64,000 nt of DNA from Gemmatimonadota bacterium (GTDB lineage: Bacteria > Gemmatimonadota > Gemmatimonadetes > Gemmatimonadales > Gemmatimonadaceae): the NCBI GenBank assembly GCA_016871915.1, contig VHBP01000004.1:1-64000 (forward strand), in the 5' to 3' direction. This document shows, piece after piece, positions 5,301-38,800 of this stretch. The position numbers were made by a program, and so were the translations under genes. Numbering within the stretch: position 1 is the first letter of the stretch; every line of letters starts with the position of its first letter. The notes under the pieces are model-generated. The model was not told the DNA's origin, searched no databases, and saw only the letters and a program-made list of their open reading frames with translations.

Positions 5301-5399
5301 AACACCGCTGCGGTGGGCGGCTCCGGCGCCGCCGGTGTCGACTACGGGAACTTCCCAATTCCGCGCGGGGTGAACTTCGGCCTCAAGGTGGCCTTCTGA
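2319..5399 (+). CDS. SusC/RagA-family TonB-linked outer membrane protein
   Basis: Signal peptide MQRRFLAVMIGSLLLASPILAQ, carboxypeptidase-regulatory-like N-domain (VTGKVTSEQGAPLQAVTVVIKGT), plug motif (ITIRGVSS...LIIVDGLPID), beta-barrel C-terminus. Confidence 0.95.
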   Translation: MQRRFLAVMIGSLLLASPILAQERSVTGKVTSEQGAPLQAVTVVIKGTSTATQTTRDGDYSIRVAVGQVLQYRLIGHAPQERIVGSEARFDVQLKRVATNLDEVVITALGQTAQQRSLGYSQQAVAGPEIAQTTRQNFINSLQGRVAGVEVTSSSGVPGASSSITIRGVSSISSSNQPLIIVDGLPIDNKTLNTGVLASDAPGSTTAFSNRRLDFTNRAADINPEDIETLVVLKGPEASALYGIDAANGAIVITTKRGTAGTGGLEYSNNFRIESVRAQPKIQRTFGPTSTDGTGLLSSFFYFGAPYADTTTFYNNIDGFFQPALTQRHALAFSGGAPDNRVNYRVAVAGDDQRGVIPNSLYRRINLTGATQAQVTRWLKADLSMQYTFANNEQSYKGDNGPLIGLLIWPQTDDAKDFVTPAGTRRRITTASAGSAETDNPYFNVNKNRVRSDNTRLIANLGLVLTPFSWGSLKTNIGLDTYNNDNLVLRHPESVYGFSNAGILDVAGDNTRNLNIQTLLNANRRQLTKDFSLSAFVGNQISQFRSNTSALRGESFLDPNFVSVNNTATRTSRTTIAERRLLSVFGSATLNFRDYLYVTATGRNDWTSTIPVERNSFFYPSISTSFIFSDAFPAIGKFMTGRLRAGYAEVGKDARPYAYRPSLEFKTTSYGGYGYGFTGPNLDLRPEFARSYEIGTELGFFQNRLGVDMAVYRKQTKDQIVNDIRGSYGTGFILFNLNGAVTRNEGVEVTVRGTAVQTRNFSWDVLMNFDRTRGTVRELPNALPESYVSDTWLYGNIRNGTQPGLSTRSLTGRYYLRNTKGELLIDPTTGLPLRQPSAFVDAGYDRQPDFIIGLTNTLRYKKASLSVLFDIRKGGDVFNATEHFLTTRGLSPRTLDRETPRVIPGVLRDGRENTATPTRNTIVVIPAVQTGFYTGMSEELFIEKDINWVRLRDVTFRYELPSALFRSREASVFITGNDLLLLTNYSGMDPVVNGNTAAVGGSGAAGVDYGNFPIPRGVNFGLKVAF

Positions 5400-7042
5400 T
5401 GCCGACCACTCCAATCACCCATCCGACGCGCCGCGCCGCGGCGCGCCCCTCCACGCTCACCGGACTTCGTATGCCTCGGATCCGTGCGCTCGTCGTCGCT
5501 GGCCTACTCGCCCTCACGGCATCGGCCTGCGACGACTTCCTTGATGTGAACGACAACCCGAACGCTCCACAAACGGTCTCGGCGAATCTCTATCTCTCGC
5601 CGATGCTGCACTGGCTCGTTAGCTCCCCCCAGTGGGACGGGCGGTTCGTTTCCCGCTACACCCAGATGTGGACCCTCCCCAGCGGGTCGACGACCCCGAG
5701 CACCTGGGACCGCATGGGGTACGACCCAGGCTCTGACAACGGCGGCCAGCAGTGGCGCGACGTGTATTGGAACCATGGTCAAAATCTCGTCGATATGATG
5801 AACAAGGCGCGGGCCGAAGAGCGCTGGGACCTTCTTGGCATCGGATACATCTTGAAGGCGTGGGGATGGCAGGTCCTCGCTGACCTGCATGGCGAGATCA
5901 TCGTGAAGGAGGCGATCAACTCTCGCACCTTCACCTTCAACTACGATTCGCAGGAGTACGCCTACAACGAGGCTCGGATTCTCCTTGACTCTGCCATTAC
6001 CCTGCTTCGTCGCACCGACGGTGCAGTCAACCAAGCGTACATTGCTCGAACTGACTTCATCTATGGCGGTGATCGGAATAAGTGGCGCAAGTTCGCCTTT
6101 GGACTCCGCGCGCTCCATCTAAACCATTACTCGAAGAAGGGGTCTTATAGCCCAGCGGCAGTGATCGCCGCGGTCGACTCCTCATTCTCGGGCAACGCGG
6201 ATGATGCGCTCCTCCTCTTCCCCAATACGGTCAACGAAGACCGAAACTTCTTTGGGCCGACGCGCAACAACATGGCGAGCTATCGGCAGACGCAGTTCGC
6301 GGTGGGCCTCGTGAACGGGACGGTCTTCTCGGGGGTGGTCGACCCCCGGCTGAACCGGATGTTCGTCCCATCGCCAGACTCGGTCTATCGGGGGCTCGAC
6401 ATCAACACCGGGGTCCTCCCGACAGCCACCCAGATCCCCCTGACGATCTGGCGAACGACCTCCCAATTGACGGCGGTCGGGCGGCCGGCGCTCTACCTCT
6501 TCGACGACAAGTCGAAGTTTCCGGCAATGACCTACGCCCAGCTCCAGTTTGTGAAAGCAGAAGCAGCGTTCAAGGCGGGAAACACGGCGATGGCCCGGGC
6601 GGCGTACCTGAATGGGATCGGCGCACACATTGACTTCGTCAATGCACGCAACGCCGAGATTGGGGCCTCGGTCCCGACGATCACGGCAGCGGAGCGGTCG
6701 GCCTTTCTTGCCAGCCCAGCGGTCGCGCCGGCAGCTGCGGACCTCAGGTTATGGCAGATCATGAGCCAAAAATATATCGCCCAGTGGGGGTGGGGGTTCA
6801 ACGAGGCTTGGATGGATCTACGCCGTTACAACTACACTGAGCTTGACCCGAGCGGTTCAAGACAGGTCTTCCCGGGCTTTGCGACCCCAACAAATCTCTA
6901 CGCCGACAATGGCGGAAAGCTTGTTCACCGCATTCGGCCGCGATTCAACTCCGAATATGTGTGGAACCAGGCTGGGCTCGACAAAATCGGCGGACTCGCG
7001 CTCGATTACCACACAAAGCCGCTCTGGATCACCCAACCATGA
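5399..7042 (+). CDS. SusD/RagB-family lipoprotein
   Basis: 547-aa ORF; lipobox-like LTASACDDFLDVNDNPNAP, directly downstream of SusC; SusD-like C-terminus. Confidence 0.92.
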   Translation: MPTTPITHPTRRAAARPSTLTGLRMPRIRALVVAGLLALTASACDDFLDVNDNPNAPQTVSANLYLSPMLHWLVSSPQWDGRFVSRYTQMWTLPSGSTTPSTWDRMGYDPGSDNGGQQWRDVYWNHGQNLVDMMNKARAEERWDLLGIGYILKAWGWQVLADLHGEIIVKEAINSRTFTFNYDSQEYAYNEARILLDSAITLLRRTDGAVNQAYIARTDFIYGGDRNKWRKFAFGLRALHLNHYSKKGSYSPAAVIAAVDSSFSGNADDALLLFPNTVNEDRNFFGPTRNNMASYRQTQFAVGLVNGTVFSGVVDPRLNRMFVPSPDSVYRGLDINTGVLPTATQIPLTIWRTTSQLTAVGRPALYLFDDKSKFPAMTYAQLQFVKAEAAFKAGNTAMARAAYLNGIGAHIDFVNARNAEIGASVPTITAAERSAFLASPAVAPAAADLRLWQIMSQKYIAQWGWGFNEAWMDLRRYNYTELDPSGSRQVFPGFATPTNLYADNGGKLVHRIRPRFNSEYVWNQAGLDKIGGLALDYHTKPLWITQP

Positions 7043-28675: not shown

Positions 28676-28744
28676 CTTCGGAAGGGCTTGTCGCTCTGCT
28701 TAAACCCCATAGCTTGGAGGGCAACCATCCTTCCCCCGCCCCGA

Positions 28745-29524
28745 ATGCCTCGCCTTTCACCGCGCTCGCTGCGACAAGAGTATCAGCAGTACGTCGAGCG
28801 CGAGGTGGAGGATTACAAGAATTCGGTGTCGACGACCTTCATGTACGGGATCGCCCAGGAGGCGGCGAAGGCGCTCGAAGAGGCCCCCCAGCTCGGCATT
28901 CGCGAGGTCATGCTCGCGGATGAGGTCGACCGGATCATCGCGAAGCGGCTACGCCTCCCGCGCTACGAGACGTGGCGGCGGCGGCGCGAGAAGAACGCGA
29001 ACGAACTCAAGAAGCCAGAGCGGTGGGGACTACGGTCGAACACGCCGCTGCGCGCTGCGATCCCTGTGGGGTCGGCGATGTCGTCGTCGGTGGTGGTCGC
29101 AGGCGCGCGGGTCACCGAATCGGCGCTCTACCTCGCGGCCAACGGGTGCGAGGTGACGGCGATCGAGCCCGAGGTGGCGATTGTGAACCAGGTGCTGCGC
29201 GCGGCGTCGGAGGCGGGGCTCACCGAGCGCCTGCGCGGTTTCGCGGCGGACCTGATCTCCTACACACCCGACGGCCCACTCGGCGCGGTCATCTGTACGC
29301 CGGCGGCGTTCGCGGGCCTCTCGCCGGTGGAGCGGGAGCGGGTCTTCCGACTGCTACAGGAGGCGACGACCGATGGCGGGGTACACCTGATCGAGACGCT
29401 CGTTGCGGGGCAAGCCGTCTTGAGTGAGGCGGAGCTTCGATCGCGCTACTCGGGGTGGACCATCACGGTCGTGCCGGAACCAGGGGCGTCGAGCACCTTC
29501 ATGGCGAAGAAGCTGGTCGCCTGA
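28745..29524 (+). CDS. Conserved-looking hypothetical protein, C-terminal half resembling a SAM-methyltransferase fold
   Basis: MPRLSPRSLRQEYQQYVEREVEDYKNS...; SSVVVAGARVTESALYLAANGCEVTAIEPE resembles motifs I/II. Confidence 0.6.
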   Translation: MPRLSPRSLRQEYQQYVEREVEDYKNSVSTTFMYGIAQEAAKALEEAPQLGIREVMLADEVDRIIAKRLRLPRYETWRRRREKNANELKKPERWGLRSNTPLRAAIPVGSAMSSSVVVAGARVTESALYLAANGCEVTAIEPEVAIVNQVLRAASEAGLTERLRGFAADLISYTPDGPLGAVICTPAAFAGLSPVERERVFRLLQEATTDGGVHLIETLVAGQAVLSEAELRSRYSGWTITVVPEPGASSTFMAKKLVA

Positions 29525-29586
29525 AGGCGACGGCATAGGTCTCGCCTGACTCCCCGTCTCACTTCGCGACGCCAGTCGCGGTTCTA

Positions 29587-29617
29587 GGGTGTGTCGCTTT
29601 GCGACACACCCTTTTTT
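29587..29617 (+). terminator. Rho-independent terminator
   Basis: GGGTGTGTCGC-TTT-GCGACACACCC followed by TTTTTT; 11-bp perfect stem. Confidence 0.93.
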
Positions 29618-29757: not shown

Positions 29758-29928
29758 ATGATCCAGACCGCTATCCCCGCCCTCCATGACGAGTCGCTCG
29801 ACGCGCTCGTGGCGGAATACTTTGACGAGCCGATCGGGATCGTCATCTCGAGCGGATCGCGGACGGAGCCGACACCGCGGGTCGCGGAGTATGTCTGGGG
29901 GCCAGTGCCGGATGAGACGAGGGGATAA
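29758..29928 (+). CDS. Small protein, 56 aa, unknown function
   Basis: ATG preceded by GAGGAG; MIQTAIPALHDESLDALVAEYFDEPIGIVISSGSRTEPTPRVAEYVWGPVPDETRG; not in the supplied ORF track (short). Confidence 0.5.
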   Translation: MIQTAIPALHDESLDALVAEYFDEPIGIVISSGSRTEPTPRVAEYVWGPVPDETRG

Positions 29929-29983
29929 CCAGCGTCATCGATTCGATCCGACGACCGCTTCGCGCCGCACTTCACAGAAAACA

Positions 29984-30015
29984 CAAAGGGATCGGCTTTC
30001 GCCGATCCCTTTGTC
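29984..30015. terminator. Perfect inverted repeat, probable terminator downstream of the Lys-rich micro-ORF
   Basis: ACAAAGGGATCGGC-TTTC-GCCGATCCCTTTGT. Confidence 0.8.
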
Positions 30016-30030
30016 TATGCAGCAGACCGC

Positions 30031-30096
30031 TTACTTCTTCTTCGCGGCCTTCTTCTTGGTCGCCTTCTTGGCGGCCTTCTTCTTCTTCGCAGCCAT
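30031..30096 (-). CDS. 21-aa Lys/Ala-rich peptide (histone-H1-tail-like)
   Basis: ATG GCT GCG AAG AAG AAG AAG GCC GCC ... TAA = MAAKKKKAAKKATKKKAAKKK; AAGGAG Shine-Dalgarno about 7 nt upstream. Confidence 0.65.
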   Translation of the reverse strand: MAAKKKKAAKKATKKKAAKKK

Positions 30097-30186
30097 TGCT
30101 AGCTCCTTGAAGGAGTGATCATCTCCCGGCCGATTCCCCGGTGAATCGGTGGGTTCCACGAAACGCGAACGTCCCGCGGCACCTCT

Positions 30187-30215
30187 TGAATACGACATTC
30201 TTCGGAATCTGTCAA
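30187..30215 (-). promoter_or_regulatory. sigma70-type promoter for the 21-aa ORF
   Basis: On the minus strand: TTGACA (30215-30210), 17-nt spacer, TATTCA (30192-30187). Confidence 0.55.
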
Positions 30216-30387
30216 GAGATTCCGAACAAGTGACGACCGGCCCGTCACGCCGTCACAGGGAACGCGCCCCAAAAATCGGATCACGCGACCTCCCCGATCA
30301 GCGCGCGCGAGGCGCACCACATACAGTTGCGCACCCCACGCGCGCACGCGATCATTGCTTCACCCCGGACATGCCACCGCTTCCGCG

Positions 30388-33312
30388 ATGACCCAGCTCA
30401 CGATCGATGGCCGGTCGTGCACCGCGCCCGACGGCGCGACGATCCTCGACGCCGCACGCACACTCGGCGTCGATATCCCGACCCTCTGCTGGTATCCGAA
30501 ACTCCCGACCGCCGGCAACTGCCGCATCTGCCTGGTCTCGGTCGAGGGCACGAACAAACTCCTCCCGGCCTGCGCGACGCCGGTCACCGACGGGATGGTC
30601 GTCACCACGGAGTCGCAGGCAGCGGTGAAGAACCGCCAGGCGGTCCTGGCGATGCTGCTGGAGCGCTACCCGGTGGAGGAGATCCCGGCGGACCAGGCGC
30701 GGAATGAGTTCGAGGCGCTGGTGCACCGCTACGAGGTGCCGCTGACGCGATCCGGGGAGCTCCCGCTCCGCACAGGGGACGAGCGCCCCACAGACCCGAT
30801 CATCACTCACGACATGTCGACCTGCATCCTCTGCACCCGCTGCGTGCGGGCGTGCGAGGAGATCCAGGTGGTCGGGGTGCTGGAGGTGGCGGCGCGCGGG
30901 GAGCATGCGGAGATCATCGTCGGGGCCGATGGGAACCCGGAACACGCGGGGTGCACCTGGTGCGGGGAGTGCGTGCGGGTCTGCCCCACGGGGGCGATCC
31001 ACGACATCCTCCCGCTCGCGAAGCTCCGCGCGGGGACGCTGGAGGCGCCGGCCACGAAGGTGCGCTCGGTCTGCCCCTACTGCGCGGTGGGATGCCAGCT
31101 CGATCTCGAGGTCCGCGACAATCAGGTGACGCGGGTGACCTCGCCGTGGATCGAAGAGGCGACGCCGAACCAGGGCTCCACCTGCGTGAAAGGGCGATTC
31201 GGGACGGACTTCGTCCTGCACCGCGATCGGCTGACGCGCCCGCTCATCCGCCGCGGGTGGATGCGCGACGCGAACGGCACCTGGCATTTTGAGGCGGATC
31301 CAAATTGGGGACGCCGCGGCGGACCGTGGACTTCGGTAGAAGCTGAGGGGCGCTCCCCAAAGGACCACCGGCCTCGGACGAATCGGACTGACGGCGGCGC
31401 CGACGCCGCCCTCGGCGACCCGCGCGACCGGATCGCCACACCCCCCTCCTGGTTCGCCCCCTTCCGCGAAGCCACCTGGGAGGAAGCCCTCGACCTCACC
31501 GCGCAACAACTCCTCCGGCTCCGCGACACCCACGGCGGCGGCTCGCTCGCGGTCTTCCAGAGTGCCAAGTGCGCCAACGAGGAGAACTACGTCCTCCAGA
31601 AGCTCTTCCGCGCAGGACTCGGCACCAACAACGTCGACCACTGCACCCGGCTCTGCCACGCCTCCTCGGTGAGCGCGATGCAGCGCGCCCTCGCCACCAG
31701 CGCGGCCTCGGGGTCGATGCGCGAGGTGGAGGAGGAGTCCGAGGTGATCTTCCTCCTCGGGGCGAACACCACGGAGAGCCACCCGGTCTTCGGGGCGGCG
31801 ATCAAGCGGGCCCTGAAGCGCGGCGCAAAGCTCATCGTCGCCGACCCGCGGCGGATCGAGCTCGCGGCCCGCGCCGACATCCTCCTGCAGATGGTCCCGG
31901 GGACCGATGTCGCCCTCCTCAACGCGATGCTGCACCATGTGCTCGCTGAGGGGCTCGAGAACCGTGAGTTCATCGCGGCGCGGACCCACGACTTCGACGC
32001 CGTCCGCGAGGCGGTGCGCCCCTACACCCCGGAGCTCGCGGCGCAGATCACGGGGATCCCGGCCGACCTGATCCGCCGCGCCGCCGTCTGCTATGCGCGC
32101 GGGCCGCGCTCGGCGACGCTCTGGGCGATGGGGCTCACGCAGCACCATACGGGGACGGACATCGTCACCTCTCTCCTCAACCTGATGCTCGCCTGCGGGA
32201 TGATCGGGCGGTGGGGAGCGCCGATGATCCCGATCCGCGGGCAGAACAATGTGCAGGGGTCGAGCGACATGGGGGCGATCCCCTTCGCCTTCACCGATTA
32301 CCGGCGGGTGGACGATCCGGCGGTGCGCGCGGAGATGGCGGCGGCGTGGGGGGTGCCGGTGGAGCGGCTCGACCCCAAGGTCGGGCGGAAGGTGACGGAG
32401 ATCGTGGGGCAGGACTCCCCCGTGCGCGGGCTCTACATCATGGGGGAGAACCCGATCATCTCCGATCCCGATGTCGCGCATGCGGAGGCATGGTTCTTGG
32501 GGCTCGAGTTCATGGCGGTGCAGGATCTCTTCCTCACCGAGTCCGCGCGGTCAGCCGACGTGGTGCTTCCGGGGTCGAGCTTCGCCGAGAAGGATGGGAC
32601 CTTCGTGAACACCGAGCGCCGGATCCAGCTCTCACGGAAGGCGGTGGAGCCGCCGGGGGAGGCGCGGGCCGATCTGGAGATCGTGCTCGATCTCTCGCGG
32701 CAGATCGGGGTGCCGACGCCCTATGCGACGGCGGCGGAGGTGTTCGAGGAGATCGCGCGGGTGACGCCGAGTTGGCGTGGGGTGAGCCATGCGCGGTTAG
32801 CCGAGCGGGTGGGAGGGCTGCAGTACCCGGTGCCCGACGCGGCGCATGAGGGGACGGCGTTCCTCTTTGATGACCATTTCCCGACGGCGGATGGGCGGGC
32901 GCGGTTCCATCCAGTGACGTATCTCCCGCCGGCGGAGCTCCCGGACGCCGCGTATCCATTCTTCCTGAACACCGGCCGGCAGATGTATCACTGGCATACT
33001 GGGACCATGACGCGGCGGAGCACGGCGTTGGATGCGCGGGAGAGCACGCCGACATTAGAGCTCAACCCCGCCGATGCGGCGGCGTTGGGCGTGGCGGATG
33101 GGGATGAGGTGGAGGTGACCTCGCGCCGCAACAGTGTGCGGGTGCATGTGCGCTGCTCGGGGCGCGTGGCGCGCGGGCAGGTGTTCCTGCCGATGCACTA
33201 CCGGGAGGCGGCGGCGAACCTGCTCACGAATCCGGCGTTGGACGGGCCGTCGGGGATCCCAGAGTTCAAGGTGTGTGCGGTGCGGATCACGTCACTCGCT
33301 CCGACCAAGTGA
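30388..33312 (+). CDS. Formate dehydrogenase alpha subunit, NuoG-like N-terminal 2Fe-2S/4Fe-4S domains, Cys (not Sec) active-site form
   Basis: LCWYPKLPTAGNCRICLVSVEG; CILCTRCVRACEEIQ; CPYCAVGCQLDLEV; NNVDHCTRLCHASSVSAM. Confidence 0.93.
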   Translation: MTQLTIDGRSCTAPDGATILDAARTLGVDIPTLCWYPKLPTAGNCRICLVSVEGTNKLLPACATPVTDGMVVTTESQAAVKNRQAVLAMLLERYPVEEIPADQARNEFEALVHRYEVPLTRSGELPLRTGDERPTDPIITHDMSTCILCTRCVRACEEIQVVGVLEVAARGEHAEIIVGADGNPEHAGCTWCGECVRVCPTGAIHDILPLAKLRAGTLEAPATKVRSVCPYCAVGCQLDLEVRDNQVTRVTSPWIEEATPNQGSTCVKGRFGTDFVLHRDRLTRPLIRRGWMRDANGTWHFEADPNWGRRGGPWTSVEAEGRSPKDHRPRTNRTDGGADAALGDPRDRIATPPSWFAPFREATWEEALDLTAQQLLRLRDTHGGGSLAVFQSAKCANEENYVLQKLFRAGLGTNNVDHCTRLCHASSVSAMQRALATSAASGSMREVEEESEVIFLLGANTTESHPVFGAAIKRALKRGAKLIVADPRRIELAARADILLQMVPGTDVALLNAMLHHVLAEGLENREFIAARTHDFDAVREAVRPYTPELAAQITGIPADLIRRAAVCYARGPRSATLWAMGLTQHHTGTDIVTSLLNLMLACGMIGRWGAPMIPIRGQNNVQGSSDMGAIPFAFTDYRRVDDPAVRAEMAAAWGVPVERLDPKVGRKVTEIVGQDSPVRGLYIMGENPIISDPDVAHAEAWFLGLEFMAVQDLFLTESARSADVVLPGSSFAEKDGTFVNTERRIQLSRKAVEPPGEARADLEIVLDLSRQIGVPTPYATAAEVFEEIARVTPSWRGVSHARLAERVGGLQYPVPDAAHEGTAFLFDDHFPTADGRARFHPVTYLPPAELPDAAYPFFLNTGRQMYHWHTGTMTRRSTALDARESTPTLELNPADAAALGVADGDEVEVTSRRNSVRVHVRCSGRVARGQVFLPMHYREAAANLLTNPALDGPSGIPEFKVCAVRITSLAPTK

Positions 33313-35679: not shown

Positions 35680-37317
35680 TTACGGCTTCTTGGCCGCCTT
35701 CTTGGCCGGCGCCTTCTTGGCGGCGGCCTTCTTCGCGGGGGGCTTCTTGGCCGCGGACTTCTTGGCGGCGGCCTTGGCAGGCACCTTCTCGGTTGCGGCC
35801 CTCGGGGCCTCGATCACCGGCTCCTCGACGAGACCGACAAGGAGGTTGGCCGGCATCGCGGGCTTGGCGCCGGGACGACCACCGCGGCCCGGGGCGGAAC
35901 GGACCCCCATCCCACGCGGCACCGGCGCAGAGGCGACGGGCTTCGGTGTCGCGGCGGCCTCGGCCACGGCGAGCTGATCGGCGATGCTCGGCGCGCCACT
36001 GCCGATCATGACCTCGAAGGAATCGCCGCGCTTACGGAGATCGACGATGCCGGCGTCGTGCGCGTCCTTAAGAATGCGCTCGAAGAAGCGCGGGGCGAGG
36101 GACTCGGAGTCGCGGCCCAGGAGCTCACGCGCCTTGGCGCGGACGCGCTCGGCGCCGACGGGTGAATCCTCGGAGCCCACGGCGTTGATCGCCTGGCGAA
36201 CGATATCGAAGGCCTCGTCACGCGTGAGACGGATCCCTTCCGAGCCGATAGAGGCATCGACCTTGGGGGCGCCGCCACGCGGGGGACGCGACGAGCCGCG
36301 CGCGGCGGGCTCGGCCATCGTCGCGACGCTTGTGGCGGTCGACGACTCGGCGCCTTCCCCACCCGTACGCTCCTCACGATCGCCACCACGGCCGCGACCA
36401 CCACGGCCACGACGACCACGACGACCACGCCCGTCACGCTCACCCTCGGCGCGCGGCGGACGCTCGCCGGTGGAGTTGGTCGCGGCAGGCGCCGGTGCCC
36501 CGCCCTGCACCGGCCCGACCTCGAGCTGGCCGTTCTCGAGCTTGGTGACCTGGAGACGCCCCTTGCTCGCAGCCTCGAGACAGAAGCGCGAGAACTTGGA
36601 CATGCCAAGATCCTTCTCGTCGAACGAGGGATCGATCTCGACCATGACCTGCTTGAGGCGATCGGAGCGCATCACATCGCCATTGCGCTGCATGCGGCCG
36701 ATGGCCTCGGTCACGAGCTCCCATGGATCCCACTTCTTGGCCGGCTGCTCGTCGCCCGCCTTCATGAGGCCGGCGAGGGCGTTGTACGAGTAGTACTCGT
36801 CACAGTTCTGGACGAGGAGATCGCTCGAGCTCTCGCGGATCCCCACGCCGATCACGTACTTGCCGTACTCTTTGAGCTTAAGGACGAGCGAGGAGAAGTC
36901 GGAGTCGCCGGAGAGGAGGATAAAGGTCCCGATCTCGGGGCGGGTGAAGACGAGCTCGATCGCATCGACGGCGAGTCGGATATCCGTCGCATTCTTTTTG
37001 GCTGACCCGTAGGCGGGGGCGAAGATGAGATCGATCGACGACTCGCTGAGGGGGACGATGTACTGCGGATAGCGGCGCCAATCGGCGTAGGCGCGCTGGA
37101 CGGCGACCTTCCCGGAGATGATGGCGCTACTGAGGAGATTCCGGAGCTCCGTCTGCAGATCGGAGCGGATCCCCATCGTGACGTTGTCGAAGTCGATGAG
37201 GAGGGCGGCGTTGGGCGCGTGGGGGTGACCCGCGGTCTCGGCCTGGGGGCCCCGATGGATAGGGGCGACCGCCGGGCGCGTGGCACGCGCCGGCGAGTGG
37301 GACGAACGTGGTGACAT
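35680..37317 (-). CDS. NYN-domain (putative RNase) protein with OST-HTH/LOTUS-like region, RG-rich linker and histone-H1-like C-terminal tail
   Basis: AALLIDFDNVTMGIRSDL...FILLSGDSDFSSLVLKLKEYGKYVIGVGIRESSSDLLVQNCDEYYSY (NYN); DGRGRRGRRGRGGRGRGGDREER; tail AAAKKSAAKKPPAKKAAAKKAPAKKAAKKP. Confidence 0.9.
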   Translation of the reverse strand: MSPRSSHSPARATRPAVAPIHRGPQAETAGHPHAPNAALLIDFDNVTMGIRSDLQTELRNLLSSAIISGKVAVQRAYADWRRYPQYIVPLSESSIDLIFAPAYGSAKKNATDIRLAVDAIELVFTRPEIGTFILLSGDSDFSSLVLKLKEYGKYVIGVGIRESSSDLLVQNCDEYYSYNALAGLMKAGDEQPAKKWDPWELVTEAIGRMQRNGDVMRSDRLKQVMVEIDPSFDEKDLGMSKFSRFCLEAASKGRLQVTKLENGQLEVGPVQGGAPAPAATNSTGERPPRAEGERDGRGRRGRRGRGGRGRGGDREERTGGEGAESSTATSVATMAEPAARGSSRPPRGGAPKVDASIGSEGIRLTRDEAFDIVRQAINAVGSEDSPVGAERVRAKARELLGRDSESLAPRFFERILKDAHDAGIVDLRKRGDSFEVMIGSGAPSIADQLAVAEAAATPKPVASAPVPRGMGVRSAPGRGGRPGAKPAMPANLLVGLVEEPVIEAPRAATEKVPAKAAAKKSAAKKPPAKKAAAKKAPAKKAAKKP

Positions 37318-37552
37318 GCTCTTCCTGGCGCGGTGCGCCGATGAAGTCGCACCCCACGCCGCACCCATCTGGGCGCTGCACGCATGGGGGCTCTCGCGGG
37401 GCGACACCGTGATCTCGTCAGCGACTCGTCCGGACCCGTGGGTACCGGAAGACGCCGCTGGCCTAGACCCACCGCGCGTCCTGCGCCCGGAAAGATAACC
37501 TGCTAGAGGGCGCAAATGGCAGTGGGAGAGGGACTTCCGTAGACTTGGAGGG

Positions 37553-38800
37553 GTGAGACACCCCCCCTTTCGCACCCGCCTCTTCGTCCTCCTCGCGCTC
37601 TTGGCCCTGGTACCGTCGATCGTGCTGACGGCGGCCTGGAGCGGGATGGCGGCGCGCTTGCTCCCGCTCGTCGGGGGCGTGGGGGCGTGGGAGCAGGTGG
37701 TGGTGAGCGGGGATTCGGCGATCACGCTCGCGCGCGCACAGCCGGGCTCAGCGGCGGCGGACTCGGCGCTCGCGGCGCATGCAGAGTTACTCGCGGAGTC
37801 ACGGGTGCAGGCGCGCCGTGTGGGGTTCCTGGCGCAGCGATCGGTGCAGGCGGTGGTGATCGTCGGGCTCGTGTTGCTCCTGATGCTGACGGGGATCGCG
37901 TCACGGATCGCAGGCCATCTGAGTCGCCAGCTCTCGCGCCCGGTGGATGAGTTGGTGCGCTGGACGACGCGGATCGCGCAGGGGGAGCCGCTGCCTGCCC
38001 CTGGTGAGGAAGAGGGGCGTGGCGCACCGGAGTTCGGGGTGCTGCGCGACGAGATGCGGCGGATGGCACAGGAGATCGAGGCGGGGCGTCACGCGGCGAT
38101 CGAGGCGGAGCGCCTCGCGGCGTTCCGCGAGTCGGCGCGGCAGGTGGCGCATGAGATCAAGAACCCGCTCACGCCGATCCGCTTCGCGATCGCGAGTCTC
38201 CGGCAGTCGACGACGCTGACGGCGAAGGAGCGCGACGCGCTCGAGGTGCTCGATGTGGAGTCGGCGCGACTCGATGCGATGGCGAAGAGCTTCGCGCAGT
38301 TCGGGCGGCTTCCCGAGGGACCGATCGCCCCGGTGGATCTCACGGCCTTGGTGCGGACGACGGCGCCGATGACGGTCCCGAGTGAGATCACGCTCGAGCT
38401 CGAGACCGATGCGGAGCTCGTGGTGCATGGGCGGCACGATGCGCTGCACCGAGCGCTCACCAACCTGCTGCTCAATGCGATCGATGCGGTGCGGGCGCGT
38501 GAGGGGGCGGGGGAACGGCGGATCACGGTGCGCGCGGCGCGCGCGGATGGGATGCCACTCCTCGCGGTGCGCGACACCGGGTGCGGGGTGAGTCCGGAGG
38601 CGTTGCCGAGGATCTTCGAGCCCTATGTGACGGCCAAGACCGGGGGCACCGGATTGGGCTTGGCGATCGTGAAACAGACGATGCTCGCGCACGGGGGACG
38701 GGTGGAGGCGAGCAGTGTGCTGGGTACTGGCACCGAGATCCGGCTCTGGTTCCCGAGTGCTGCCCGTGAGATCGAGTCCCCTGCCCCGCGAGCGAGTTAA
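37553..38800 (+). CDS. Sensor histidine kinase, NtrY-like
   Basis: TM/HAMP region then VAHEIKNPLTPIRFAIASLRQ; DTGCGVSPEALPRIFEPYVTAKTGGTGLGLAIVKQTMLAHGG. Confidence 0.93.
   Translation: MRHPPFRTRLFVLLALLALVPSIVLTAAWSGMAARLLPLVGGVGAWEQVVVSGDSAITLARAQPGSAAADSALAAHAELLAESRVQARRVGFLAQRSVQAVVIVGLVLLLMLTGIASRIAGHLSRQLSRPVDELVRWTTRIAQGEPLPAPGEEEGRGAPEFGVLRDEMRRMAQEIEAGRHAAIEAERLAAFRESARQVAHEIKNPLTPIRFAIASLRQSTTLTAKERDALEVLDVESARLDAMAKSFAQFGRLPEGPIAPVDLTALVRTTAPMTVPSEITLELETDAELVVHGRHDALHRALTNLLLNAIDAVRAREGAGERRITVRAARADGMPLLAVRDTGCGVSPEALPRIFEPYVTAKTGGTGLGLAIVKQTMLAHGGRVEASSVLGTGTEIRLWFPSAAREIESPAPRAS

Follow-up and report, generated by a model that had tools for sequence, protein, structure and literature searches.

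Does a reading frame of only 21 codons, specifying little but lysine and alanine, amount to a gene, and if it does, what might its product do and how might it be controlled? The question arises on the minus strand of a 64,000-nucleotide stretch of DNA (here the window) from a freshwater member of the Gemmatimonadaceae; this stretch lies on contig C4 of an assembly that measures 2.07 Mb and is 98.75% complete. A sequence-only reading had described there a self-contained transcription unit for a Lys/Ala (K/A) microprotein, and direct reading of the minus strand finds its promoter, hairpin, Shine-Dalgarno sequence (SD), 21-codon open reading frame (ORF) and terminator all in place. Comparison with relatives leads us to conclude that the ORF is very probably a genuine translated gene, not a chance layout, and that it is almost certainly preceded by a structured RNA leader. 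As to what the two do together, we lean slightly toward a gene for a miniature histone H1-like, nucleic acid-binding protein whose translation is controlled by its leader.

The ORF, MAAKKKKAAKKATKKKAAKKK plus its stop codon, occupies 30031-30096, with the ATG at 30096, the stop ending at 30031 and the SD AAGGAG (30108-30103) 6 nt before the ATG. Lysine accounts for 12 of the 21 residues, and there are no acidic or large hydrophobic ones. This form lies at the short end of a series of orthologs that extends from 14 to 137 aa. Across 62 orthologs, K makes up 45% and A 32% of the residues, nearly all of the remainder being G, R, T, M, V, P and S; acidic residues number 3 in 2429, and F, I, L, W, Y and C are absent, so that the membrane-acting role also floated in the sequence-only reading is unlikely. 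The composition is that of an H1-like protein (Lys/Ala-rich, strongly basic and of low complexity), and the resemblance to a bare histone H1 tail remarked on before is strengthened by longer orthologs found in other genera, which at 97-137 aa are outright H1-like. Genera g39 and g4 have the same leader in front of H1-like proteins about 100 aa long, such as MAPAKKAAKKAAKKGGRKVAKKAARK.... The 21-mer matches no family in Pfam or NCBIfam, the ~100-aa orthologs have no match above cut-off in either, and Rfam 15 holds no family that the transcript reaches at the gathering threshold (sX6, RF02225, scores 21.7 against 40; PrrB/RsmZ 16.4 against 44; BSnc120 22.1 against 114). The gene is therefore placed with the H1-like proteins by kind and not by family membership. 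When ten 21-aa orthologs from the genus are compared, six codons vary; the differences are synonymous in five, the stop among them, and the sixth exchanges Ala for Val. A K/A ORF with start, SD and stop is retained in every unit inspected, and in 69 of 72 units the stop is followed within 80 nt by a terminator-like stem of at least 8 bp, of largely different sequence.

The unit is kept well beyond this genome, which clearly contradicts the refuting condition set in the sequence-only reading, an absence of conservation in relatives. At the DNA level, 54 of 61 relatives contain matches to the 251-nt unit, though many weak matches are simply other K/A-rich tails. A covariance model (R1) spanning hairpin, SD and start codon matches 119 of 179 Gemmatimonadaceae genomes, in 28 of 35 genera and mostly in single copy. 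Within the window's own genus it matches 15 of 17 genomes, the two unmatched being 71-77% complete. In a phylum-wide sample only two matches fell beyond the family: one (L027 in genome G044) precedes a true K/A peptide, and the other (L138 in G322), at the start of groEL, was judged to be chance. The K/A peptide is also present in a sister family (f3), with the related loops ACUAGG and ACUGGG. Where the hairpin pattern was matched in named genomes, all were Gemmatimonadota assemblies, several of them from lakes and groundwater. The bare motif CCACCGGGG is uninformative, being too common (96 matches in the genome).

The leader hairpin, H1 (30125-30153), is the best-conserved element of the unit and not an incidental one. 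It consists of a stem P1 (CCC/GGG), an internal loop A/CC, a 7-bp stem P2 and the hexaloop ACCGGG; the core CCGATTC(ACCGGG)GAATCGG covers 30149-30130, and the CCC/GGG extension pairs 30153-30151 with 30127-30125. In 29 family sequences 99.7% of alignment cells are paired and 8 of 10 pairs show double-sided changes. Over a more diverse set of 56 sequences, every one of the 10 pairs shows such changes, the double-change cells number 128 where 36 would be expected, and slid registers of the hairpin find no support; this second alignment was fitted to the model, and the 29-sequence test is the more independent. In 70 of 74 units the hexaloop reads ACCGGG; of the four exceptions, two are spurious units. 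Downstream, the SD itself lies in a small stem-loop, H2, CTCCT(TCA)AGGAG (30103-30115). Pairing of the SD with an arm upstream of it occurs in 68 of 74 units, compared with 20% in shuffles, and the variable pair of H2 shows U-A/A-U exchanges across units. With its SD base-paired inside a conserved leader structure, the element is a candidate SD-occluding regulatory leader, a class that takes in RNA thermometers, riboswitches and protein-controlled leaders. Neither this placement of the SD nor a further hairpin, H0, had been noticed in the sequence-only reading. H0 (30156-30179) is a predicted 10-bp fold, CCGCGGGACG(UUCG)CGUUUCGUGG, near the predicted 5' end of the RNA, and visual inspection finds stem-loops of differing sequence at its position in relatives. 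The whole predicted transcript folds much better than shuffles (z = -5.3). The 88-nt leader alone does so only modestly (z = -1.8), and thus the case for structure rests on covariation and not on energy.

How might such a gene work? We think it likely that the leader regulates translation: H2 would limit access of ribosomes to the SD, and H1 could be the recognition site for a trans-acting factor, either an RNA-binding protein or a small RNA (sRNA). A nucleoid or nucleic acid-binding role for the product is reasonably likely. The peptide would be disordered and would bind polyanions without sequence specificity, chiefly chromosomal DNA and possibly RNA or polyphosphate, and it may help to compact or coat the nucleoid. 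Control through the leader would then ensure that a potentially growth-inhibitory polycation is produced only when wanted. Several observations weigh against this picture. About one third of the family genomes have no R1 match, owing in part to incompleteness and strict filters. Low-complexity K/A runs change by triplet slippage, so that in-frame change of length is, taken alone, weak evidence of coding. The anti-SD arm has been lost in a few species (L018, L021), and H2 is therefore not essential everywhere. Finally, a peptide of only 14-21 residues may lack the length needed to condense DNA effectively.

Chlamydia provides the nearest working parallel. Its sRNA IhtA represses HctA at the level of translation and also controls DdbA, a second basic DNA-binding protein (PMC3469542, PMC8343073); HctA is H1-like, and its expression kills E. 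coli (PMC3469542). Like HctA (Hc1), HctB (Hc2) and the tails of Pseudomonas AlgP and PhaF, the K/A peptide is rich in Lys and Ala, very basic and of low complexity; unlike them, it can be as short as 14-21 aa and lacks any Pfam or NCBIfam match. The putative control also differs from that of HctA: its agent would be a cis hairpin, conserved and with a fixed hexaloop, in place of a known sRNA. In size the peptide recalls ScvA and Hq1 of Coxiella, two very small, basic DNA binders associated with the condensed nucleoid of the small cell variant (PMC4766238). That likeness is one of description, across a different phylum and life style. To our knowledge, ScvA and Hq1 have no comparable leader.

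A second gene bears on the function of the first. Some genomes, including this one (G000:C40), contain a second copy of the leader, matched by R1 and by another model, R2, ahead of an H1-tailed SWIB/MDM2 protein; the K/A-tailed protein on G000:C40 has the domain (Pfam PF02201, E 1.6e-26), whereas the 21-mer contains no such domain. In Waddlia, a relative of Chlamydia, the SWIB protein Wcw_0377 binds along the whole genome (PMC6426960). When SWIB leaders were chosen by domain, ACCGGG stood at a hairpin apex in 12 of 14 from the same genus, only five of those 12 having the exact hexaloop in the predicted fold, and in none of eight from other genera. The SWIB leaders of other genera found by the model (L120, L121-L127, L172) have the same loop on unrelated stems. 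The ACCGGG loop common to K/A and SWIB leaders is suggestive of a shared trans factor; common descent of the leader together with the K/A tail could be the alternative. That the ACCGGG hairpin represents a new Gemmatimonadaceae class of cis-regulatory RNA, through which a single trans factor (perhaps the H1-like protein itself) controls a chromatin regulon of miniprotein and SWIB protein, is a tentative proposal that we regard as somewhat doubtful. When 15 genomes were searched with R2 and matches admitted up to an E of 10, the only convincing cases among the matches inspected were K/A genes and SWIB genes; scattered matches in coding sequence, considered as further regulon members, were judged to be chance. 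Separately from the ACCGGG leader, the K/A-tailed SWIB genes L170 (G000:C40, ~5370-5500, minus) and L118-L127 have in common an upstream block, TATTGCGCTC...TTTACTTTCGAG, that resembles a conserved promoter or operator.

The target of the peptide need not be the chromosome. Gemmatimonas aurantiaca is a polyphosphate accumulator, and a serious rival, if an unlikely one, is that the peptide is directed at polyphosphate granules, in the manner of the H1-like AlgP of Pseudomonas. AlgP, by way of precedent, has a K/P/A H1-like tail and localises to and spaces such granules, but it possesses an N-terminal domain as well, and both AlgP and peptides of its tail bind DNA (PMC9239181). Moreover, no polyphosphate gene lies beside the unit, and the SWIB domain encoded behind a related leader points to DNA.

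It is rather improbable that the active product is the transcript itself, a regulatory or dual-function RNA to which the ORF is secondary. The RNA is short and highly structured with a strong terminator, it carries an anti-SD-like CUCCU segment, and H1 is better conserved than the length of the peptide. A comparable case is sX6 of Xanthomonas, initially called an sRNA and later found to encode a protein (PMC5559785). Our transcript is likewise a short mRNA of the kind mistaken for an sRNA, and its weak match to the sX6 model extends over AAG runs and the terminator; with a score below the gathering threshold and an alignment possible only via large deletions, the two are not homologous on present evidence. 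The CUCCU segment pairs in cis with the gene's own SD, no Rfam family is reached at threshold, and the constant presence of a K/A ORF with start, SD and stop, exceeding 100 aa in some genera and varying mostly synonymously within the genus, argues for the protein as the product.

A ribosome-associated basic peptide is very unlikely. bTHX and bL37 are very short basic ribosomal proteins of similar size and charge, and the K/A gene is single copy; yet a peptide seated in a fixed rRNA site would hardly range in length from 14 to 137 aa and change in sequence as this one does, and its presence is patchy. The leader hairpin shows no rRNA mimicry: at the 16S and 23S loci of two relatives there is no ACCGGG loop with more than one closing pair. 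A tiny ORF next to a terminator, with Lys runs that could slow ribosomes, might suggest a leader peptide/attenuator or, alternatively, a small membrane toxin such as a type I toxin. Both are highly improbable: the next ORF past the terminator (29758-29928, plus) is convergent and leaves no obvious same-strand gene to control, and the 62 orthologs lack the hydrophobic residues that a membrane-spanning or amphipathic helix would require.

At its borders the unit is furnished with a candidate promoter and a terminator. The former (30187-30215, minus) is sigma-70-like by direct reading: -35 TTGACA at 30215-30210, a 17-nt spacer and -10 TATTCA at 30192-30187. This -10 is weak (4 of 6 consensus positions, with a final A), and the promoter is missing from the consensus-scan list because the scan demands a final T. 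The call rests on conservation: the same TTGACA/TATTCA elements are kept in two close relatives (L010 and L011), and L020 and L022 have an analogous putative promoter, TTGACA-N17-TATGAA/TATCAA. The unit is thus self-contained here, as had been proposed, but in many relatives the K/A gene sits after a tldD/pmbA-like gene, so that a stand-alone promoter is not universal. At the other end, an intrinsic terminator (29983-30014, minus) has a perfect 14-bp stem, ACAAAGGGATCGGC(GAAA)GCCGATCCCTTTGT, followed by GTTTTCTG.

As for the neighbourhood, the gene divergent from the unit (30355-33312, plus) encodes a formate-dehydrogenase-like molybdopterin oxidoreductase with ferredoxin domains; elsewhere in the genus, several members instead have the tldD/pmbA-like gene upstream. 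The ORF converging on the unit encodes 56 aa, MIQTAIPALHDESLDALVAEYFDEPIGIVISSG...VAEYVWGPVPDETRG, with no Pfam or NCBIfam match, and several genera have relatives of it next to their K/A gene (L010, L011, L024, L026). Beyond it, a gene for a 278-aa methyltransferase-like protein (28688-29524, plus; weakly matching the daptide methyltransferase and TehB models of NCBIfam, with no Pfam match) stays close to the K/A unit across the family, and 3' of it lies a strong terminator-like stem, AGGGTGTGTCGCTTTGCGACACACCCT, followed by TTTTTT (29586-29612, plus). Another K/A-tailed protein of this genome is encoded by a long ORF at 35680-37725 (minus), the product of which ends in a K/A/P-rich H1-like tail, PAKAAAKKSAAKKPPAKKAAAKKAPAKKAAKKP.

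In a search of the open-access literature we found no description of the K/A gene or of its leader RNA element. The kind of protein is already known; what is new is its extreme brevity, its elastic length and a covarying leader with a fixed hexaloop. If our interpretation is correct, the peptide is among the shortest H1-like proteins known, and its orthologs of 14-137 aa provide a natural series for asking how much polycation the organisation of a bacterial chromosome needs. The short forms are smaller than gene callers usually report and are likely to be missing from many annotations, while the leader adds a strongly covarying RNA element absent from Rfam 15. By analogy with hctA and IhtA of Chlamydia, the unit may represent a case of post-transcriptional control of chromatin proteins in the Gemmatimonadaceae.
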